Shown here one piece after another: positions 12,040 through 17,484 of a DNA stretch of 23,421 bases. The stretch's first letter is position 1. Each line of letters opens with the position of its first letter. The stretch comes from a virus. The notes beneath the pieces were generated by a model, which made no database searches, had not been told where the DNA came from, and was given only the letters and a program-made list of their open reading frames with translations. The stretch covers positions 1-23,421 of the IMG/VR virus record IMGVR_UViG_3300041411_000108, one strand, 5' to 3'. The translations under genes and the position numbers were made by a program.

Positions 12040-12473
12040 CACTCTGGCTGCGGCTCCTTCCTTATATAGCTGCGGCGCTGCTGGTGGCCGGCGCGCTGTT
12101 CGGCATCTATCACCACGGGTTGTCGGTGAAGGACGCCGAATGGCAGGCCAAATGGAACGCTCGCGATACCCGGGATGCCGAGTCCGTAGCGCGGAACGAG
12201 GCGACCGAGCGCGCCAAAGAACAAACCCGCCAACAGTCAATCAACAAGGCGATTCAAGATGGACAACAGATCATCAACCAAACAACTGCTGATGCTGCCA
12301 CTGCTCGCGCTGCTGCTGACAGCCTGCGCGGGGCAGCCGACACCCTTGCCGCTCGACTCGCAGCCAGTGAAAGCAGCGGCCATTCCTGCACTGCCGCCGC
12401 AAGCAAGGCAGCTGCCCACGCCAGAGCCAGGGGCTTGACTTGCCAGCAGGCGTATTACGGTATTGCGAAATAG
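12036..12473 (+). CDS. Inner-membrane spanin (Rz-like, DUF2514 type)
   Basis: A 145-residue protein that works with Rz1 to fuse inner and outer membranes in the last step of lysis. The start ATG shares bases with the endolysin stop. Residues about 3-26 form one N-terminal membrane helix (LRLLPYIAAALLVAGALFGI), followed by a long periplasmic helix rich in Ala, Gln, Arg and Glu, as in i-spanins. The end, ARARGLTCQQAYYGIAK, fits DUF2514 proteins of Pseudomonas phages. From memory those usually have some 25-30 more residues between the SCTAAASKAAA stretch and ARARG, so this copy may carry an internal deletion. The Rz1 gene lies inside it in another frame. Confidence 0.87.
   Translation: MTLWLRLLPYIAAALLVAGALFGIYHHGLSVKDAEWQAKWNARDTRDAESVARNEATERAKEQTRQQSINKAIQDGQQIINQTTADAATARAAADSLRGAADTLAARLAASESSGHSCTAAASKAAAHARARGLTCQQAYYGIAK
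12259..12438 (+). CDS. Outer-membrane spanin lipoprotein (Rz1-like), nested in Rz
   Basis: A 59-residue ORF wholly inside the Rz gene in the +1 frame. It has a short charged N-terminus (MDNRSSTKQ), a hydrophobic segment LLMLPLLALLL, and lipobox L-T-A-C with the lipid-modified Cys at residue 23. The mature part is about 37 residues and Pro-rich (P-T-P-L-P-L, A-L-P-P-Q, L-P-T-P-E-P-G-A), close to lambda Rz1 (60 residues). Nested Rz1 genes are the known arrangement in lambda-like phages. The start at 12259 is the only ATG that gives the complete signal; I see no strong ribosome site, so coupling to Rz translation is likely. Confidence 0.88.
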   Translation: MDNRSSTKQLLMLPLLALLLTACAGQPTPLPLDSQPVKAAAIPALPPQARQLPTPEPGA

Positions 12474-12520: not shown

Positions 12521-12640
12521 TTACGACACCACATCGGGGTCCTTGCATAAAAATGAGAGCAGGTAACCAAAGCAAACGGCAATTGCCAATGCTGCAAGGA
12601 TGGGCGTGATCAGGATGATGCATAAAATTTTGCTGAGCAT
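12521..12640 (-). CDS. 39-residue single-TM peptide, unknown function
   Basis: A small ORF read from the minus strand, convergent with the lysis genes. AAGGA lies 7 bases before the ATG, a good ribosome site. The peptide starts MLSKILCIILITPILAAL, continues through a hydrophobic stretch to about residue 31 and ends with a short polar tail (CKDPDVVS). It is one predicted membrane helix, with a Lys near the N-terminus. No family recognised. Its place between lysis genes and attP could fit a small membrane toxin, a superinfection-exclusion peptide or a lysis regulator, but none of these is shown. A longer ORF in another frame over the same bases looks like a shadow. Confidence 0.5.
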   Translation of the reverse strand: MLSKILCIILITPILAALAIAVCFGYLLSFLCKDPDVVS

Positions 12641-12804
12641 GGTTAAGTCCTTTTAGTTCGGGCGCAAGGATGCCATCAAAAAGAGGGGTTGTATATTTCG
12701 GCAGGACGCCGCGGCGAGGGATGCTGCTGAAAAGTTGCTGAAGCGGGCGCGAGTCGACATCAATCCACAACAACCCTCAGCAACATTCCAAGGTCCAGAT
12801 GCAG

Positions 12805-12829
12805 CGAAACCCTCACTGGGCGGGCTTCG
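12805..12829 (-). other. Hairpin beyond the ssrA-like 3' end, possible decayed terminator
   Basis: Read on the minus strand, CGAAGCCC pairs with GGGTTTCG (one G-T pair) around a 9-base loop, starting about 14 bases after the CCA of the tmRNA-like segment. Host ssrA genes are followed by a terminator, so this may be copied along with the 3' end. There is no T tract, so it is probably not an efficient terminator. Confidence 0.35.
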
Positions 12830-12842
12830 TTGGTGTTTAAAG

Positions 12843-12870
12843 TGGTGGAGCCGGGGGGATTTAAACCCCC
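12843..12870 (-). other. tmRNA (ssrA) 3'-end copy, likely attP core
   Basis: Read on the minus strand: a T-arm with a 5-bp stem (GGGGG/CCCCC) and a 7-base loop TTTAAAT, then the 7-base acceptor strand CGGCTCC, discriminator A and CCA. This is the 3' end of Pseudomonas tmRNA as I remember it, with one change: the conserved loop reads TTC in the host and TTT here. The 5' acceptor strand (GGAGCCG or GGGGCCG) and D-arm are absent within 100 bases, so it is not a complete gene. tRNA-Ala shares the CTCCACCA end and is the alternative source. Confidence 0.75.
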
Positions 12871-12933
12871 GGTCGGTCGTTGTATTCCGTGTCCTGTAGC
12901 GGTGTGGTAGCTGAAAAGCTGCTGAAACCGTAT

Positions 12934-13422
12934 TTAGGCGTGACTGATAGTCCCTTTCGAGTCACCCATTTTTTTGTTCGGTGATTGCTTGCTCATGGCG
13001 AAGTCTGTCGCCTCGTCGAGATCAGTGAAATCGGCCTGCATAACTCCGCCGCCAAGTCCGCCAGCACCATTATCAAGGTACATAACGCTCCACCCGTCCC
13101 CGTTGTCGGAAACCTGCTGGCTGTCTCGGAAGAATCGGTAGCGTTCGGCGTCCTTGCGCAGTTCAGCCGCCAACCCTTCCAGCTCGCTTGGGTCGTCATC
13201 CATTTCGGCGCCCAAGGCCTCGCCAATGGTCCCGATGCTCACGGCAGCGCTCAGAAGCATGCGCTTGTGGGATTCGAGATCCTTGCGCAGCGCATCGCGC
13301 TCAGCCAGCAGCGTGTCATAGCTGGAGGCAAGAACGATCTCAGGGCCATGCGGCTCGTACCCGATCTTGTTGCCGTCTTCCGACAGCATCTTCACGACTT
13401 TATAACGATGAACCTCGATCAT
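12934..13422 (-). CDS. Hypothetical phage protein with coiled coil
   Basis: A 162-residue protein and last gene of the leftward region, ending 6 bases before the right attP arm repeat. GGAGG lies 7 bases before the ATG and the start overlaps the previous stop as ATGA. Residues about 33-55 (YDTLLAERDALRKDLESH) form a heptad-like helix, and the DAERYRFFRDSQQ segment near 91-103 followed by an acidic end is a pattern common in accessory proteins of Pseudomonas and enteric phages (Ead/Ea22-like in style). No catalytic motif. Function unknown. Confidence 0.75.
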   Translation of the reverse strand: MIEVHRYKVVKMLSEDGNKIGYEPHGPEIVLASSYDTLLAERDALRKDLESHKRMLLSAAVSIGTIGEALGAEMDDDPSELEGLAAELRKDAERYRFFRDSQQVSDNGDGWSVMYLDNGAGGLGGGVMQADFTDLDEATDFAMSKQSPNKKMGDSKGTISHA

Positions 13423-13643
13423 TGCATATCCTCCAGAGCTTCCCGTGGCGTTATCCCGCCGTACTGATCGATCATCCCGCCGCGCTCGGTAAGCTTCGGG
13501 CCGGCAAGCAGGTTGTAACGCTCATCCTCTGACCAGCCGCACGGACAGCCCCAAGGGCCATAGATAATCCCAATCCCTACATCTGCCGATTCTCGGCAGC
13601 AACCGCCGCCGCACGCTGGGCATTGATGCTCGTAGTTGCTCAT
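13419..13643 (-). CDS. Small Cys-rich protein, zinc-ribbon-like
   Basis: A 74-residue protein. The ATG at 13643 is chosen because AAGGAGG lies 7 bases upstream and it overlaps the preceding stop as ATGA; an upstream in-frame start would add 38 Arg-rich residues from inside the previous gene. Cysteines at 8, 11, 15, 16, 33 and 35 (CPACGGGCC, later GCPCGW) form a likely zinc-binding unit. Similar GPWGCPCGW-containing hypothetical proteins occur in Pseudomonas phages. It may bind nucleic acid or protein; function unknown. Confidence 0.75.
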   Translation of the reverse strand: MSNYEHQCPACGGGCCRESADVGIGIIYGPWGCPCGWSEDERYNLLAGPKLTERGGMIDQYGGITPREALEDMQ

Positions 13644-14245
13644 TGCGCGGCCTCCTTGTTGGCCGTCTCGGCGCTTGTGATGGCGCGGCGCACAGGCACC
13701 ATGGCGCCCCTGATGTACTTCATCCCGTTGAATACGCCGGGCCCTACCGGTGACCAAGTGGCCGCGTCATCTTCCAGGTGCTCATCCGTCGCTGCGATCG
13801 TGTCCCCTGCTTCAAGTAGACGATACGCAATTGTGGTCGGCTCGGCGCTGGCAGCCAGCCCCTCTACAGCCTTGCTGTAAATGAACTTGATCTGATCCCA
13901 TGAAATCATGTGTTTCTGTTCGTACTCGCCATCGCCGTCGCAGATTTCGCAATGCTCGTCTGGCTCATCCAGATCGACACACTCGGGACAGTCTTGGGTG
14001 ACACTAACGCTGAACTCTCCGATCAGAAGCGCTTTCGCCCCGCTCTCAGCGGTCAGCCTTCTTGGCATGACGCAGTATCCATCTGGTATCGCGCCCACCT
14101 GTTCGGCGCTCATAAAATGAGCCTGCACCGCCGTACGCATCTGCGTGAACACAGCGCCACGCTCCATCCGGTTGCGGCAAATGTCGTCTTCGATCTGGTC
14201 GAAGCGGTCGCGCAGGGCTTTCGGGATTGGGTGCGAATCAGTCAT
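13640..14245 (-). CDS. Hypothetical phage protein with central zinc-binding Cys pairs
   Basis: A 201-residue protein starting MTDSHPIPKALRDRF. The ATG at 14245 has GGAG 7 bases upstream and is preferred over an in-frame start nine residues earlier. Two CxxC pairs (C86/C89 and C99/C102), separated by an acidic loop, form a probable zinc finger between a helical N-terminal part and a helical C-terminal part (QIKFIYSKAVEGLAAS). The last part is acidic with a conserved-looking GPGVFNGMKYIRG. It overlaps both neighbours by a few bases. I do not recognise the family beyond similar phage hypotheticals. Confidence 0.75.
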   Translation of the reverse strand: MTDSHPIPKALRDRFDQIEDDICRNRMERGAVFTQMRTAVQAHFMSAEQVGAIPDGYCVMPRRLTAESGAKALLIGEFSVSVTQDCPECVDLDEPDEHCEICDGDGEYEQKHMISWDQIKFIYSKAVEGLAASAEPTTIAYRLLEAGDTIAATDEHLEDDAATWSPVGPGVFNGMKYIRGAMVPVRRAITSAETANKEAAQ

Positions 14246-14471
14246 ATGCATACTCCGAGGCGAATGCCTCACGGGATTTCAGAGTTTTGGCGTCGCGGCG
14301 AGCCAGCCAATTCAAGCAACCCTTGCAGGTCACTTCGCTTTTGAAGCGAGCGCCATCCCACTCCTCATGCTCACGGTTTCCATTTCCAACGCCGCAAGCC
14401 GAAGAGGATTCATGATCGTCGCCTTCTGGACCGCTACAACTCCAGCCGATCCAATGAATCTTCTTGCTCAT
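14238..14471 (-). CDS. Small Cys-containing hypothetical protein
   Basis: A 77-residue protein. The ATG at 14471 is chosen because GGGAG lies about 7 bases upstream and the start overlaps the previous stop as ATGA; an upstream start would add 22 residues from inside that gene. C12, C26, C49 and C52 (the last two as TCKGC), with nearby His residues, could bind one zinc. Trp-rich N-terminus (IHWIGWSC). Its end overlaps the next gene by 8 bases. No function recognised. Confidence 0.7.
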   Translation of the reverse strand: MSKKIHWIGWSCSGPEGDDHESSSACGVGNGNREHEEWDGARFKSEVTCKGCLNWLARRDAKTLKSREAFASEYAYD

Positions 14472-14950
14472 TCGCTTTCTCCCGATTCGGTGGGCTGTAT
14501 GGCGGCCTTCATCTTCTTGTGCAGGATCGAGTCGCACCAGACTGAATTCCTGGTGCTACCGTCCAGGTAGTCAGAGGTTTCACGCAGAAGCTCTATCAGT
14601 GCCGAATTCTTCTGCTGAAATTCAAATGCGTCCTTCATCTCTTCGCGCAGGGCGGCCTTGGTAGATTCCAGTTCATCCCGCAGCCGCTCAACCTCGCCCG
14701 CATCGGATCGGGTGAACAGTGGAACCAAGTTACCCTTTGGCGATTGCTCCCCGAAGGCGCAGCAGCACTCGTCGCCTCGAAGTGTTGCCAGTACGTCCGG
14801 CTTGATCCATGCCGCCGGCGCATCGGCTTGCGGCTGGGCGAGCATGGTATTCAGCTCTCTGGCCAGGGCCGCACAATGGTTGCTGGTCAGCATCACCTCA
14901 TTACTGATCTGGCAGTTCGCCGTCATTACGTCCTTCATTGTCAGCTGCAT
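14468..14950 (-). CDS. Hypothetical phage protein with coiled coil
   Basis: A 160-residue protein. The ATG at 14950 is preferred over a GTG one codon earlier because AGGGG then sits 6 bases upstream. The middle has WIKPDVLATLRGDECCCAFG followed by NLVPLFTR, a motif string I know from accessory proteins of enteric and Pseudomonas phages. About residues 85-120 (EVERLRDELESTKAALREEM) form a coiled coil. The tail is polar. The stop overlaps the next start as ATGA. Function unknown. Confidence 0.75.
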   Translation of the reverse strand: MQLTMKDVMTANCQISNEVMLTSNHCAALARELNTMLAQPQADAPAAWIKPDVLATLRGDECCCAFGEQSPKGNLVPLFTRSDAGEVERLRDELESTKAALREEMKDAFEFQQKNSALIELLRETSDYLDGSTRNSVWCDSILHKKMKAAIQPTESGESE

Positions 14951-14965
14951 CACTCACCCCTTCGT

Positions 14966-15193
14966 TTATTTGTCGCCGGACTGCCCGGCCTTCACGCATT
15001 CCGATTCCTGCACCAGCAGGCGGTTGATTGCCGCTGTAGCGCTCTCGCCTTTGGCCTCAAGATCCGCCAGAGACTCAGCGGCTTCAGGCTGCAACTTGAT
15101 CCCGCTCAGCCTCCGACCGCCACGGGCCAGCAGGTTCTTTTCGTGCGCCTCGACGCGACTGGTCGATGTCTTTGGTGGTTTCGTGGCATTCAT
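14966..15193 (-). CDS. Small putative ribbon-helix-helix DNA-binding protein
   Basis: A 75-residue basic protein. RRLSGIKLQP (about 27-36) could be the beta strand, EAAESLADLEAKG the first helix and SATAAINRLLVQE the second helix of an Arc/MetJ-type ribbon-helix-helix fold. The N-terminus is Lys/Arg-rich. The ribosome site is weak (GGAC). Size and fold suggest a local repressor or an excisionase-like factor, and it lies between int and attP next to a palindromic operator candidate. This is inference from pattern alone. Confidence 0.65.
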   Translation of the reverse strand: MNATKPPKTSTSRVEAHEKNLLARGGRRLSGIKLQPEAAESLADLEAKGESATAAINRLLVQESECVKAGQSGDK

Positions 15194-15209
15194 TCTGGGT
15201 CGTCCGACT

Positions 15210-15407
15210 TCATTGACTGAGAAGCTGGGCTAGCGGCTCCAGGTTGCCCAGTCTGGTTTCAGATAGCGCTGACTTCACGATTTCTTTGCTGTAACCCTTC
15301 CCCTCAAGATGCCGAGCTACGCAAAGCTCAAGACGGAACACCCTGTTCGATTGGGTACAGAGCTGTCGCACCAGATCCTTCTGATGCGCTTTCTCGGAGT
15401 CGTTCAC
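15210..15407 (-). CDS. Small hypothetical protein
   Basis: A 65-residue, helical, basic protein (MNDSEKAHQKDLVRQLCTQS). The start is taken as GTG at 15407 because it overlaps the preceding stop as GTGA, matching the coupling seen through this cluster; an in-frame TTG at 15422 is the alternative. No clear ribosome site. No family recognised. It ends 16 bases before the next gene. Confidence 0.6.
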   Translation of the reverse strand: MNDSEKAHQKDLVRQLCTQSNRVFRLELCVARHLEGKGYSKEIVKSALSETRLGNLEPLAQLLSQ

Positions 15408-15580
15408 CGGCTGAAATCGCAACGGTGATTAAGGATCGCGTTATCTGCTGCGTTCTGTTCTTCAACCAGGTTGCGGACGATCTGCATGGCCGCTTCCCAT
15501 TCAGCAGTGCCGAAGGTCAGGGCGTTTACTGATGCGCGAGCTGCTTTCAGTGCTTTGTCGGCGGCTTTGAAGTTGGTCAT
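15404..15580 (-). CDS. Small hypothetical protein, first gene of attP-side cluster
   Basis: A 58-residue helical protein starting MTNFKAADKALKAARASVNA. GGAG lies 9 bases before the ATG at 15580. An upstream in-frame start at 15652 would lie upstream of the predicted transcription start, so the shorter form is chosen. It is the first gene after the putative promoter at 15629-15657 and is coupled to the next gene by GTGA. No function recognised. Confidence 0.68.
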   Translation of the reverse strand: MTNFKAADKALKAARASVNALTFGTAEWEAAMQIVRNLVEEQNAADNAILNHRCDFSR

Positions 15581-15628
15581 ATCGGCGTGCTCCGTAGTTC
15601 GGTCGGCACCGCGCCTCCCATGGAATGA

Positions 15629-15657
15629 ACTATAGGATAGTTGGTGCACCAACGCAA
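15629..15657 (-). promoter_or_regulatory. Putative promoter of the attP-side gene cluster
   Basis: On the minus strand, TTGCGT (-35, 15652-15657) and TATAGT (-10, 15629-15634, one base from consensus) are separated by exactly 17 bases. Transcription would start near 15622, leaving a leader of about 40 bases before the 58-residue protein gene. It lies just beyond the integrase stop, so the eight downstream genes could be expressed without int, for example from a quiet prophage. Predicted by eye only. Confidence 0.55.
15640..15653. promoter_or_regulatory. Perfect 14-bp palindrome, candidate operator
   Basis: GTTGGTGCACCAAC is a perfect inverted repeat placed between the predicted -35 and -10 elements, overlapping the edge of the -35. 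A repressor bound here would block RNA polymerase. The binder is unknown; candidates in the window are the double-HTH protein (19243-19734) and the ribbon-helix-helix-like proteins. Confidence 0.6.
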
Positions 15658-15670
15658 GAAGAGAATTCGA

Positions 15671-16840
15671 TTATCCGTGCTTTCTGATTTCAGCCTGCTC
15701 AGGACTCCCAAACATCGCCACCGCCTTATCCCCCGACGAGTCGCCATCGGTTGGAATCCAGCGCCCGTATACCCTGGCAATCATGAGCCAGGATGCGTGC
15801 CCCATCTGCTTGGCCACCCACATCGGATGCTCGCCCGCGCTCAGCATCATGGATGCGTAGGTGTGCCGGGTCTGGTACGGGTTCCGGTAGCGCACGCCTG
15901 CCCGGCGGATGGTCGGCGTCCACAATGATTTACGCAGCTCCTGGTCGCCGTTGAATGCCCGGTTGTGCCTCGGGTCGTGGAAAACGGCCTTCCCCTCTAT
16001 ATAGGTGTGCTCGCGCTGGGCCTTCAGCGCCTCGAACGACATGGGCAGCAGGCGCACACTACGAACCCCGGCCGCTGTCTTCGGCGTCTCTGCCTCGCTG
16101 GCCGCCGCCGTCAACCCTCGCGACACCCTCACCTCTCCTCGATGCCAGTCAATGTCGCCCCACTCCAGCGCGACCAGCTCCGACGTGCGCAACCCAGTCC
16201 AGAAGGCGAACTGCAACAGGTTCCGATATTGCCCGGTCGCTGCCGCCAGAATTGCTCGCTGCTCATCTGGACTGAAAGGGTCGATCTCGTCCTCGGTGCG
16301 CGGCTTGCCCTTCACTGAATACGTCCAGCCGGCCAGTGGGTTCGATTCGATCAGCTCGTCATCCACGGCATCGCTCAGGGCCGAGCGCAGGCAGCTTTGC
16401 ACGTTGGCCAGCCGCTTGTTCGTCGCCGACATCTTGGCCATGGCCGCCTTGACCTCCTTTCGCGTAACAAGCGCTAGTGGGAGCGAGCCCAGCGCCGGGA
16501 CCAGCACCCCAGAAACGATCTTGCGGTAACCATCCAGCGTGGACGCCTTCAGGATGCCGGCCTTGCGCTCAAGCCATTCATCCAGGTACTGGCCCAGCGG
16601 CACCTGGCCGGACTGGCCGACAGCCGATGCCGCGCGCTTCGACCGTGGGAACGCCTCGGCATAGTCAAACTCGCCCCGGTGAATCGCCAGATCGATGGAA
16701 GCCTTCTGCTGCTGCGCCCGCTTCAGGTTGGCCGGCGTAGGCTCCAGCGGCAGGCGCTCGCGACGCTGAACGCCATCCAGCATAAAGCTGATCTCGATAC
16801 TGCTTTTCGATGCCGCACGCACCCCGCGCTTCGCAGCCAT
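15671..16840 (-). CDS. int: Tyrosine site-specific integrase
   Basis: A 389-residue phage integrase that recombines attP with the host att site. AGGGG lies 6 bases before the ATG. The N-terminal part (residues about 12-66: ISFMLDGVQRRERL to FDYAEAFP) is the DUF3596-type arm-binding domain. Residues about 80-165 are the SAM-like core-binding domain, and 185-360 the catalytic domain with R218 (TGLRTSEL), K254, R325 with H326 (YQTRHTYAS), H348 (QMGHAS) and nucleophile Y358 (ARVYGRW). The usual first His of the HxxR box is Tyr (Y322), as in other members of this group I know. The probable attP lies about 2.7 kb away on the left, with eight small genes between, which is further than usual. Confidence 0.95.
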   Translation of the reverse strand: MAAKRGVRAASKSSIEISFMLDGVQRRERLPLEPTPANLKRAQQQKASIDLAIHRGEFDYAEAFPRSKRAASAVGQSGQVPLGQYLDEWLERKAGILKASTLDGYRKIVSGVLVPALGSLPLALVTRKEVKAAMAKMSATNKRLANVQSCLRSALSDAVDDELIESNPLAGWTYSVKGKPRTEDEIDPFSPDEQRAILAAATGQYRNLLQFAFWTGLRTSELVALEWGDIDWHRGEVRVSRGLTAAASEAETPKTAAGVRSVRLLPMSFEALKAQREHTYIEGKAVFHDPRHNRAFNGDQELRKSLWTPTIRRAGVRYRNPYQTRHTYASMMLSAGEHPMWVAKQMGHASWLMIARVYGRWIPTDGDSSGDKAVAMFGSPEQAEIRKHG

Positions 16841-16911: not shown

Positions 16912-17235
16912 TTATAGGTTGCGAAGTTCTTTTCGCTGCTCTGGCGACTGAGCTGGATAGCCGAAATAGAAGCGCCGCTTGCCTGTGTAGCCGCACTCAC
17001 TGCAACCGGTCGATGGTCCGCAACCGCAGCCACCCTCACATCCGCAGCTGCACCCACTACATGACAATGTCACAACCCCTTCTTCCTCGACTTCGCCGTC
17101 CTCGGTAATCCAATATTTACGCCGCCGATCAAGCCGGAACCCGGCCACCTCTTCAGCCTGCTCATATGTCGCCGGCTCGACTCGAAATCCATACTCAGCG
17201 CTTGGATCAGCGACTGATCGCATAACTTTTGGCAT
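16912..17235 (-). CDS. Cys-cluster protein, probable metal-binding
   Basis: A 107-residue protein. GAGGA lies 7 bases before the ATG. Residues 59-81 hold eight Cys in 23 positions (C59, 62, 64, 66, 70, 72, 78, 81), embedded in Gly, then GYTGKRRFYFG. The first half is charged (Arg/Glu-rich). The dense Cys set can bind two zinc ions or more; it recalls DnaJ-like zinc repeats but does not keep their spacing. It is the gene before int in the leftward region; 71 bases separate it from the int start. Function unknown. Confidence 0.72.
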   Translation of the reverse strand: MPKVMRSVADPSAEYGFRVEPATYEQAEEVAGFRLDRRRKYWITEDGEVEEEGVVTLSCSGCSCGCEGGCGCGPSTGCSECGYTGKRRFYFGYPAQSPEQRKELRNL

Positions 17236-17286
17236 GTCGAATTCCTCGCCCGCCGTACACCGGCAGGCTCTTGTGTGGGGTAGGGG

Positions 17287-17484
17287 TTAGGCGAGTTCGG
17301 CGTTGAACGCTTCGATAATCGCCGGGGCGCAGAAGGTGATCGGCAGAGCGTCGGAGCTTTTGCCATCGCTGATGATCACCCAGCCATCTTTTCGCAGGGT
17401 GCAGGTCTCGTTACCACGCCGGATGCGCGCGATCGGCAGGCCATGGAATGGCAGGCGGCGATTGATCCAGTAAATCCACTTCAT
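17287..17484 (-). CDS. Small hypothetical protein
   Basis: A 65-residue protein starting MKWIYWINRRLPFHGLPIAR. GAGGAG lies a few bases before the ATG, and the start overlaps the preceding stop as ATGA. Basic, Trp-rich N-terminus and a helical end (APAIIEAFNAELA). No recognised domain. Confidence 0.65.
   Translation of the reverse strand: MKWIYWINRRLPFHGLPIARIRRGNETCTLRKDGWVIISDGKSSDALPITFCAPAIIEAFNAELA

Follow-up and report, generated by a model that had tools for sequence, protein, structure and literature searches.

Does this stretch of viral DNA carry an attachment site directed at the host tmRNA gene and, if so, to which phage does the site belong? In the window, by which we mean the whole 23.4-kb virus record analysed here, a segment resembling the end of Pseudomonas ssrA lies between the lysis genes and an integrase gene and is framed by paired 11-bp repeats. 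We put the probability at about 0.88 that positions 12723-12928 are the att site of an ssrA-targeting tyrosine integrase of the Arm-DNA-bind_2 type, and that this site is a composite of halves from two lineages.

Organization of the window

From left to right, the window carries tail genes, an endolysin gene, an Rz-like gene (PF10721), the att region, eight small minus-strand ORFs, the integrase gene and early genes (Table 1). End repeats are absent from it. Phage genes are found on both sides of the att region, with lysin and Rz on the left and the tyrosine integrase, 2.7 kb off, on the right. The earlier note on this DNA had proposed a DUF3596-type integrase at this distance with eight genes in between, and it was right on each of these points. 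The protein scores 68.6 bits with PF12167 (cut-off 22), the Arm-DNA-bind_2 family (DUF3596 by its former name), and 57.6 bits with the tyrosine recombinase catalytic domain PF00589 (cut-off 27.1). It has both the N-terminal arm-binding domain and the catalytic domain that define Arm-DNA-bind_2 integrases.

The eight-ORF interval between the att site and the integrase gene varies among relatives. Short segments at 13638-13677, 14461-14497, 14681-14724, 14948-14991 and 17227-17295 are about 85-100% identical across many of them while the genes around these segments change; several lie at gene boundaries and resemble shared linkers between gene cassettes. A possible membrane peptide of about 40 residues, MLSKILCIILITPILAALAIAVCFGYLLSFLCKDPDVVS, is encoded on the minus strand between Rz and the att site (12522-12644).

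Table 1. Features of the att region and of its surroundings, in window positions
Feature	Positions	Strand	Basis or remark
Rz-like spanin gene (DUF2514)	12069-12473	+	PF10721 match; left neighbour of the att site
Left arm direct pair, 11-bp units GCTGCTGAAAA and GTTGCTGAAGC	12723-12744	+	-118 from core start
Left arm inverted pair, CAACAACCCTCAGCAAC	12768-12784	-	Decayed in the window but whole in MR13 and others
Terminator hairpin copied from host ssrA, beyond the CCA end	12795-12842	-	Aligns with the 3' flanks of host ssrA
Core: ssrA T-arm, 3' acceptor strand and CCA	12843-12871	-	28/29 bases as in the Pseudomonas ssrA 3' end
Candidate strand-exchange segment GGGGGATTT and lineage joint	12854-12862		Placed by the change of kinship
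Right arm direct pair, 11-bp units GTAGCTGAAAA and GCTGCTGAAAC	12907-12928	+	+66 from core start
Hairpin and T-run, probable terminator of rightward (late) transcription	12937-12975	+	z -2.81; part of the conserved block
Eight small ORFs, att site to integrase	12934-15652	-	No Pfam family at E<=0.01
The same, one by one	12934-13422, 13419-13757, 13640-14272, 14238-14537, 14468-14953, 14966-15193, 15210-15422, 15404-15652	-	
Tyrosine integrase with Arm-DNA-bind_2 domain	15671-16840	-	PF12167 and PF00589 above cut-offs; phrog_1 integrase

The core and the copied ssrA terminator

The core, TGGTGGAGCCGGGGGGATTTAAACCCCCG, differs from the end of Pseudomonas ssrA by a single base, an A for G at 12863, in the T-loop. 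This is the near-identity to the 3' end of a host gene that is found in an attP at a tRNA or tmRNA gene, and it bears out the T-arm/acceptor/CCA segment of ssrA type that had been recognized here, along with the alignment to host ssrA that had been suggested as a check. ARAGORN and Rfam at the gathering threshold give no match within the window. A permissive search returns a weak RF00023 match on the minus strand at 12843-12902 (14 bits, E 1.3e-5), under the family cut-off. With a query of the joined ssrA end and flank, the ssrA end was found in all 40 of 40 Pseudomonas genomes at E<=1e-20, a result that cannot prove an empty site because the phage carries a similar terminator.

The likeness to ssrA extends further left than the core, through the terminator hairpin at 12795-12842; the phage sequence left of the CCA end is similar to the host's own ssrA 3' flank. 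On the ssrA strand, phages and hosts share a terminator hairpin with a 10-bp stem and CCCGC ... GCGGG at its centre. In an alignment of 14 sequences, 97.1% of the stem cells are paired and 8 are compensatory, and none of 500 shuffles was as high on either measure; one pair of the stem is lost in the window. Judging from this alignment, integration should supply ssrA with both a new end and a new terminator. The second hairpin, to the right of the right arm, is present in most of the half-site contigs described below and is not among the hits listed by a scan for terminator-like structures.

Arm units and their register

Allowing up to 2 mismatches, the window has two occurrences of the 20-mer GYTGCTGAAAAGYTGCTGAA, exactly at the two direct pairs, against 0.00 expected from 100 shuffles. 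The paired units that the earlier note had seen on either side of the tmRNA-like segment (12723-12744 and 12907-12928) are confirmed by this count. Its "inverted half copy" (12777-12784) has to be revised: the inverted motif exists, but it is really part of a full inverted pair, which relatives have intact and which has decayed in the window.

The left direct pair is found at the equivalent place in phage MR13 and in further phages and prophages of what we call the ssrA-restoring group. Among the cores of a group with integrases about 74% identical, the right pair lies within the search tolerance in 36 of 36, and at +66 in 35 of these; the left pair is present in 21 of the 36. The cores without a left pair are probably attR sites bordered by host DNA. 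Two positions are used by the left pair, -118 in the window, MR13 and others (a few members are 1-2 bp off) and -96 in a second set. The difference is exactly 22 bp, that is two helical turns. In both sets the inverted pair begins 43 bp inside the start of the left direct pair, with the proviso that for part of the -96 set the loose search pattern was anchored 10 bp away.

In a more distant integrase group (about 55-60% identity) the motif is a different one, GCTGNCAT, found twice with an 11-bp period at +64. A fixed place combined with a changed motif is how arm-type sites and the domain that binds them should behave. From position and conservation we infer that Int binds the arm units. Matches to short patterns in three further records (L242-L244) were due to chance.

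Related prophages and phages

In P. brassicacearum 38D7, two core copies 41.9 kb apart on one contig bound a prophage. Its attL is the end of an intact ssrA (tag ANDENYGQEFALAA) and its attR lies beside the integrase gene, so that the proposed mapping of attL and attR in related prophages leads to ssrA. Next to the intact ssrA, the phage arm shares 89.5% identity with window 12700-12871 and, like the window, comprises left arm, terminator and core; this prophage is integrated at ssrA with the tmRNA restored. It departs from the window in that its integrase protein is only 72% identical, its right arm is diverged and its integrase gene is next to attR. As in P. brassicacearum, core copies, one of them within the intact gene, also bound an element with a more distant integrase in P. 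graminis. In Pseudomonas graminis (L138/L207), a 5.4-kb stretch from the intact ssrA to a second core encodes an integrase of the more distant group; this stretch represents either a small integrating element at the ssrA site or what is left of one.

The free Pseudomonas phages MR13 and MR15 (MT104473, MT104475) carry the whole site, with 75% DNA identity over 12700-12925: the ssrA core, the pairs at -118 and +66, the inverted pair and the terminator copy. Unlike in the window, their integrase gene is about 0.1 kb from the core without gene cassettes in between, and their T-loop is that of ssrA. A short ORF of MR13 that overlaps attP, gp19 (MT104473.1 15444-15638; L082 5017-5211), bears the annotation "putative site-specific integrase" and is probably not a real gene.

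CP4So of Shewanella oneidensis (PMC5148205) is also an element located at ssrA, and base differences between its att copies likewise decide tmRNA function; it differs in being a cryptic prophage in which the effect is exerted on excision, via a one-base deletion.

A clade with half a site

The integrases closest to that of the window (92-98% identity, about 30 viral contigs) stand beside something else. Those of these relatives that include the att region have only 12854-12975 in common with the window, namely the core from its G-run onwards, the right arm and the rightward terminator hairpin. They are devoid of the CCA end, the ssrA terminator and the left arm; left of the equivalent of 12854 they continue with [A/G]TCC and then with unrelated small genes. 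This half-site, a block of about 120 bp, is found in 35 viral contigs (L002-L032, L161-L195). No left arm lies within 3 kb of the half-sites and no second left arm was found elsewhere in 21 half-site records. An acceptor end with the window's T-loop variant is present in no viral contig besides the window, and the full site together with the window's Int is known from this one contig only. In sequence terms, the window is atypical within its own integrase clade.

The half-site clade integrases are intact and evolve under purifying selection (median dN/dS 0.14, dS 0.31), which indicates that they are still functional in some way. Plasmid and phage collections contain no relatives of 12854-12977. 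Searches for lysogens of the 92-98% clade were negative among genome-contig relatives and in 399 Pseudomonas genomes. Nor did Pseudomonas yield another conserved attB for the clade: candidates with its ATTTAAA stretch are absent, with 0 of 399 for CCGGGGGATTTAAACCCC and 0 of 59 for CCGGGGGATTTAAA.

From its att sequence, the half-site clade may integrate without restoring ssrA. On the acceptor side, 29 of 34 half-site contigs have a gene, preceded by a plausible ribosome site, whose start is no more than about 45 bp from the core, a figure that proves little alone because the region is dense in such genes. If this arrangement is brought next to ssrA, the ssrA promoter would read into the adjoining gene. 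This leads to a tentative and rather unlikely proposal: the sister clade would integrate at ssrA through the 9-bp core without rebuilding the tmRNA, which would be silenced in the lysogen, the host ssrA promoter would read into a phage gene, and the window would be the trace of such an integration next to a resident prophage. If the half-site Int does use ssrA, the tmRNA gene of the lysogen would stop at the T-stem, lacking the acceptor strand and CCA, and such a lysogen would be recognized by an ssrA truncated at the T-stem and followed by GGATGGAAAA or GGATGCGACAACC.

The nearest precedent for such behaviour would be tRNA-dependent lysogeny, in which cores of 8-10 bp are used, the tRNA is not rebuilt and the phage supplies the lost tRNA, integration having been shown (PMC10865867). 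Fionnbharth and Gaia (PMC10865867) resemble the present case in that related integrases occur with and without the gene-restoring half and share a short common core, as with GGGGGATTT in the half-site. The phages of that system encode the lost tRNA and integrate demonstrably; in the half-site clade there is no tmRNA match and integration is only hypothetical. Indeed, none of 15 half-site records, some of them fragments, has an RF00023 match, so the phage-encoded RNA of tRNA-dependent lysogeny has no counterpart in these records.

Probable composite origin of the window's site

In the integrase tree the window is nested within the half-site clade (branch 98/92), in a nine-row group that includes the half-site carriers L003, L010, L016 and L017. 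The half-site is therefore the likely ancestral state, and the window would have gained its left half. By sequence, this left half resembles that of the ssrA-restoring group, and the right half and the integrase appear to come from the half-site clade. Rz adjoins the site in the ssrA-restoring group and in the window; the half-site phages taken for comparison yielded none.

The change of kinship at the core is sharp. Half-site relatives begin to match at 12854, and the joint falls within 12854-12862; sequence of ssrA type, with six G, stands to the left of this segment and the half-site clade's ATTTAAACCCCCGGTC to the right. With only about 9 bp in common between the parents at this point, homologous exchange is less likely than an exchange of the Int type. 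The core copies of U. squillarum (L108), considered for mapping the crossover, have the same base in both copies found and are uninformative.

The site is either a recombinant attP or the junction of two tandem prophages. As far as an att site at ssrA is concerned, the earlier reading stands; the site is composite, however, and instead of being one phage's attP it may mark the place where two prophages adjoin. At such a junction, which is possible if on balance unlikely, a half-site phage would have integrated beside a resident ssrA-restoring prophage, so that the half-site integrase and right arm would be followed by the core and then by the resident's acceptor, terminator, left arm, Rz and lysin. 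Tandem integration yields precisely the window's sequence, joint included, in one step, and the late-gene neighbours (lysin, Rz and left arm) fit the layout of the ssrA-restoring group. A hybrid ssrA junction of like kind exists in Pseudomonas sp. N40 (L101 12700-13200), where the right arm of the distant integrase group, the core and a left arm of the ssrA-restoring group (83.9% identical to the window) are joined; this left arm, however, belongs to a scar of about 240 bp beside bacterial genes, so that N40 does not hold a full tandem pair. Also against a tandem junction, the window reads as a single lambdoid genome (tail-lysis-att-int-early) without a second integrase. Tail genes proved unusable as an arbiter between recombinant phage and tandem prophage, the phages being too mosaic.

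Other explanations of the site fare less well. It might be an evolutionary leftover, with the clade's Int acting solely on the right half-site and making no use of the left half of ssrA type. This would agree with related integrases adjoining half-sites, or sitting on contigs not long enough to include the left side, and with an Int that is constrained (dN/dS 0.14) where the left half is missing; it is improbable given that the window's left direct pair is unmutated and in register and that the joint lies inside the core, where functional exchange would put it. Metagenome misassembly of two phages at a shared core might account for a full form seen once in the viral collection and for several half-site contigs whose ends coincide with the core or lie close to it (L010/L169, L187). 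We consider it very improbable, as the 9 bp or so shared by the parents is far under the usual assembly overlap. Initiators and repressors also use repeats of such length, which leaves the idea that the TGCTGAA repeats have no part in integration and serve as iterons or regulator sites. Their position, fixed family-wide relative to the ssrA core beside the integrase, and the other 11-bp repeat at a similar place in the distant integrase group make this hardly credible.

Proposed mechanism and significance

For the composite ssrA att site that we favour, the following scheme can be drawn. The N-terminal domain of Int would bind the 11-bp units of the left direct, left inverted and right direct pairs, and its catalytic part the core. 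Strand exchange would take place where the 3' strand of the T-stem of the tmRNA is encoded, probably in GGGGGATTT. Integration would then join the 5' part of host ssrA to the phage DNA on the left side of the crossover, and this DNA would provide acceptor strand, CCA and terminator, so that the tmRNA would still be functional; the mismatched T-loop base at 12863 would remain on the phage side. It is sequence comparison that points to this exact crossover and to a joint made by Int. The closest integrases come without the left half, which speaks against the use of a full site; that this Int may use one is suggested by its other relatives. The T-loop mismatch to ssrA, the single contig that combines the full site with this Int and the negative searches for lysogens of the 92-98% clade also count against the favoured reading.

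The window's ssrA attachment site is of an ordinary, already known type; what deserves further attention is its composite make-up and the half-site clade. What emerges is an anatomical model of the ssrA attP for Arm-DNA-bind_2 integrases, with six arm units in fixed register and a copied terminator, in which the left arm shifts only by two helical turns. Beside it stands a phage clade with a constrained integrase but half an attP, and the question that it poses is whether tmRNA repair has been traded for a gene behind the ssrA promoter.
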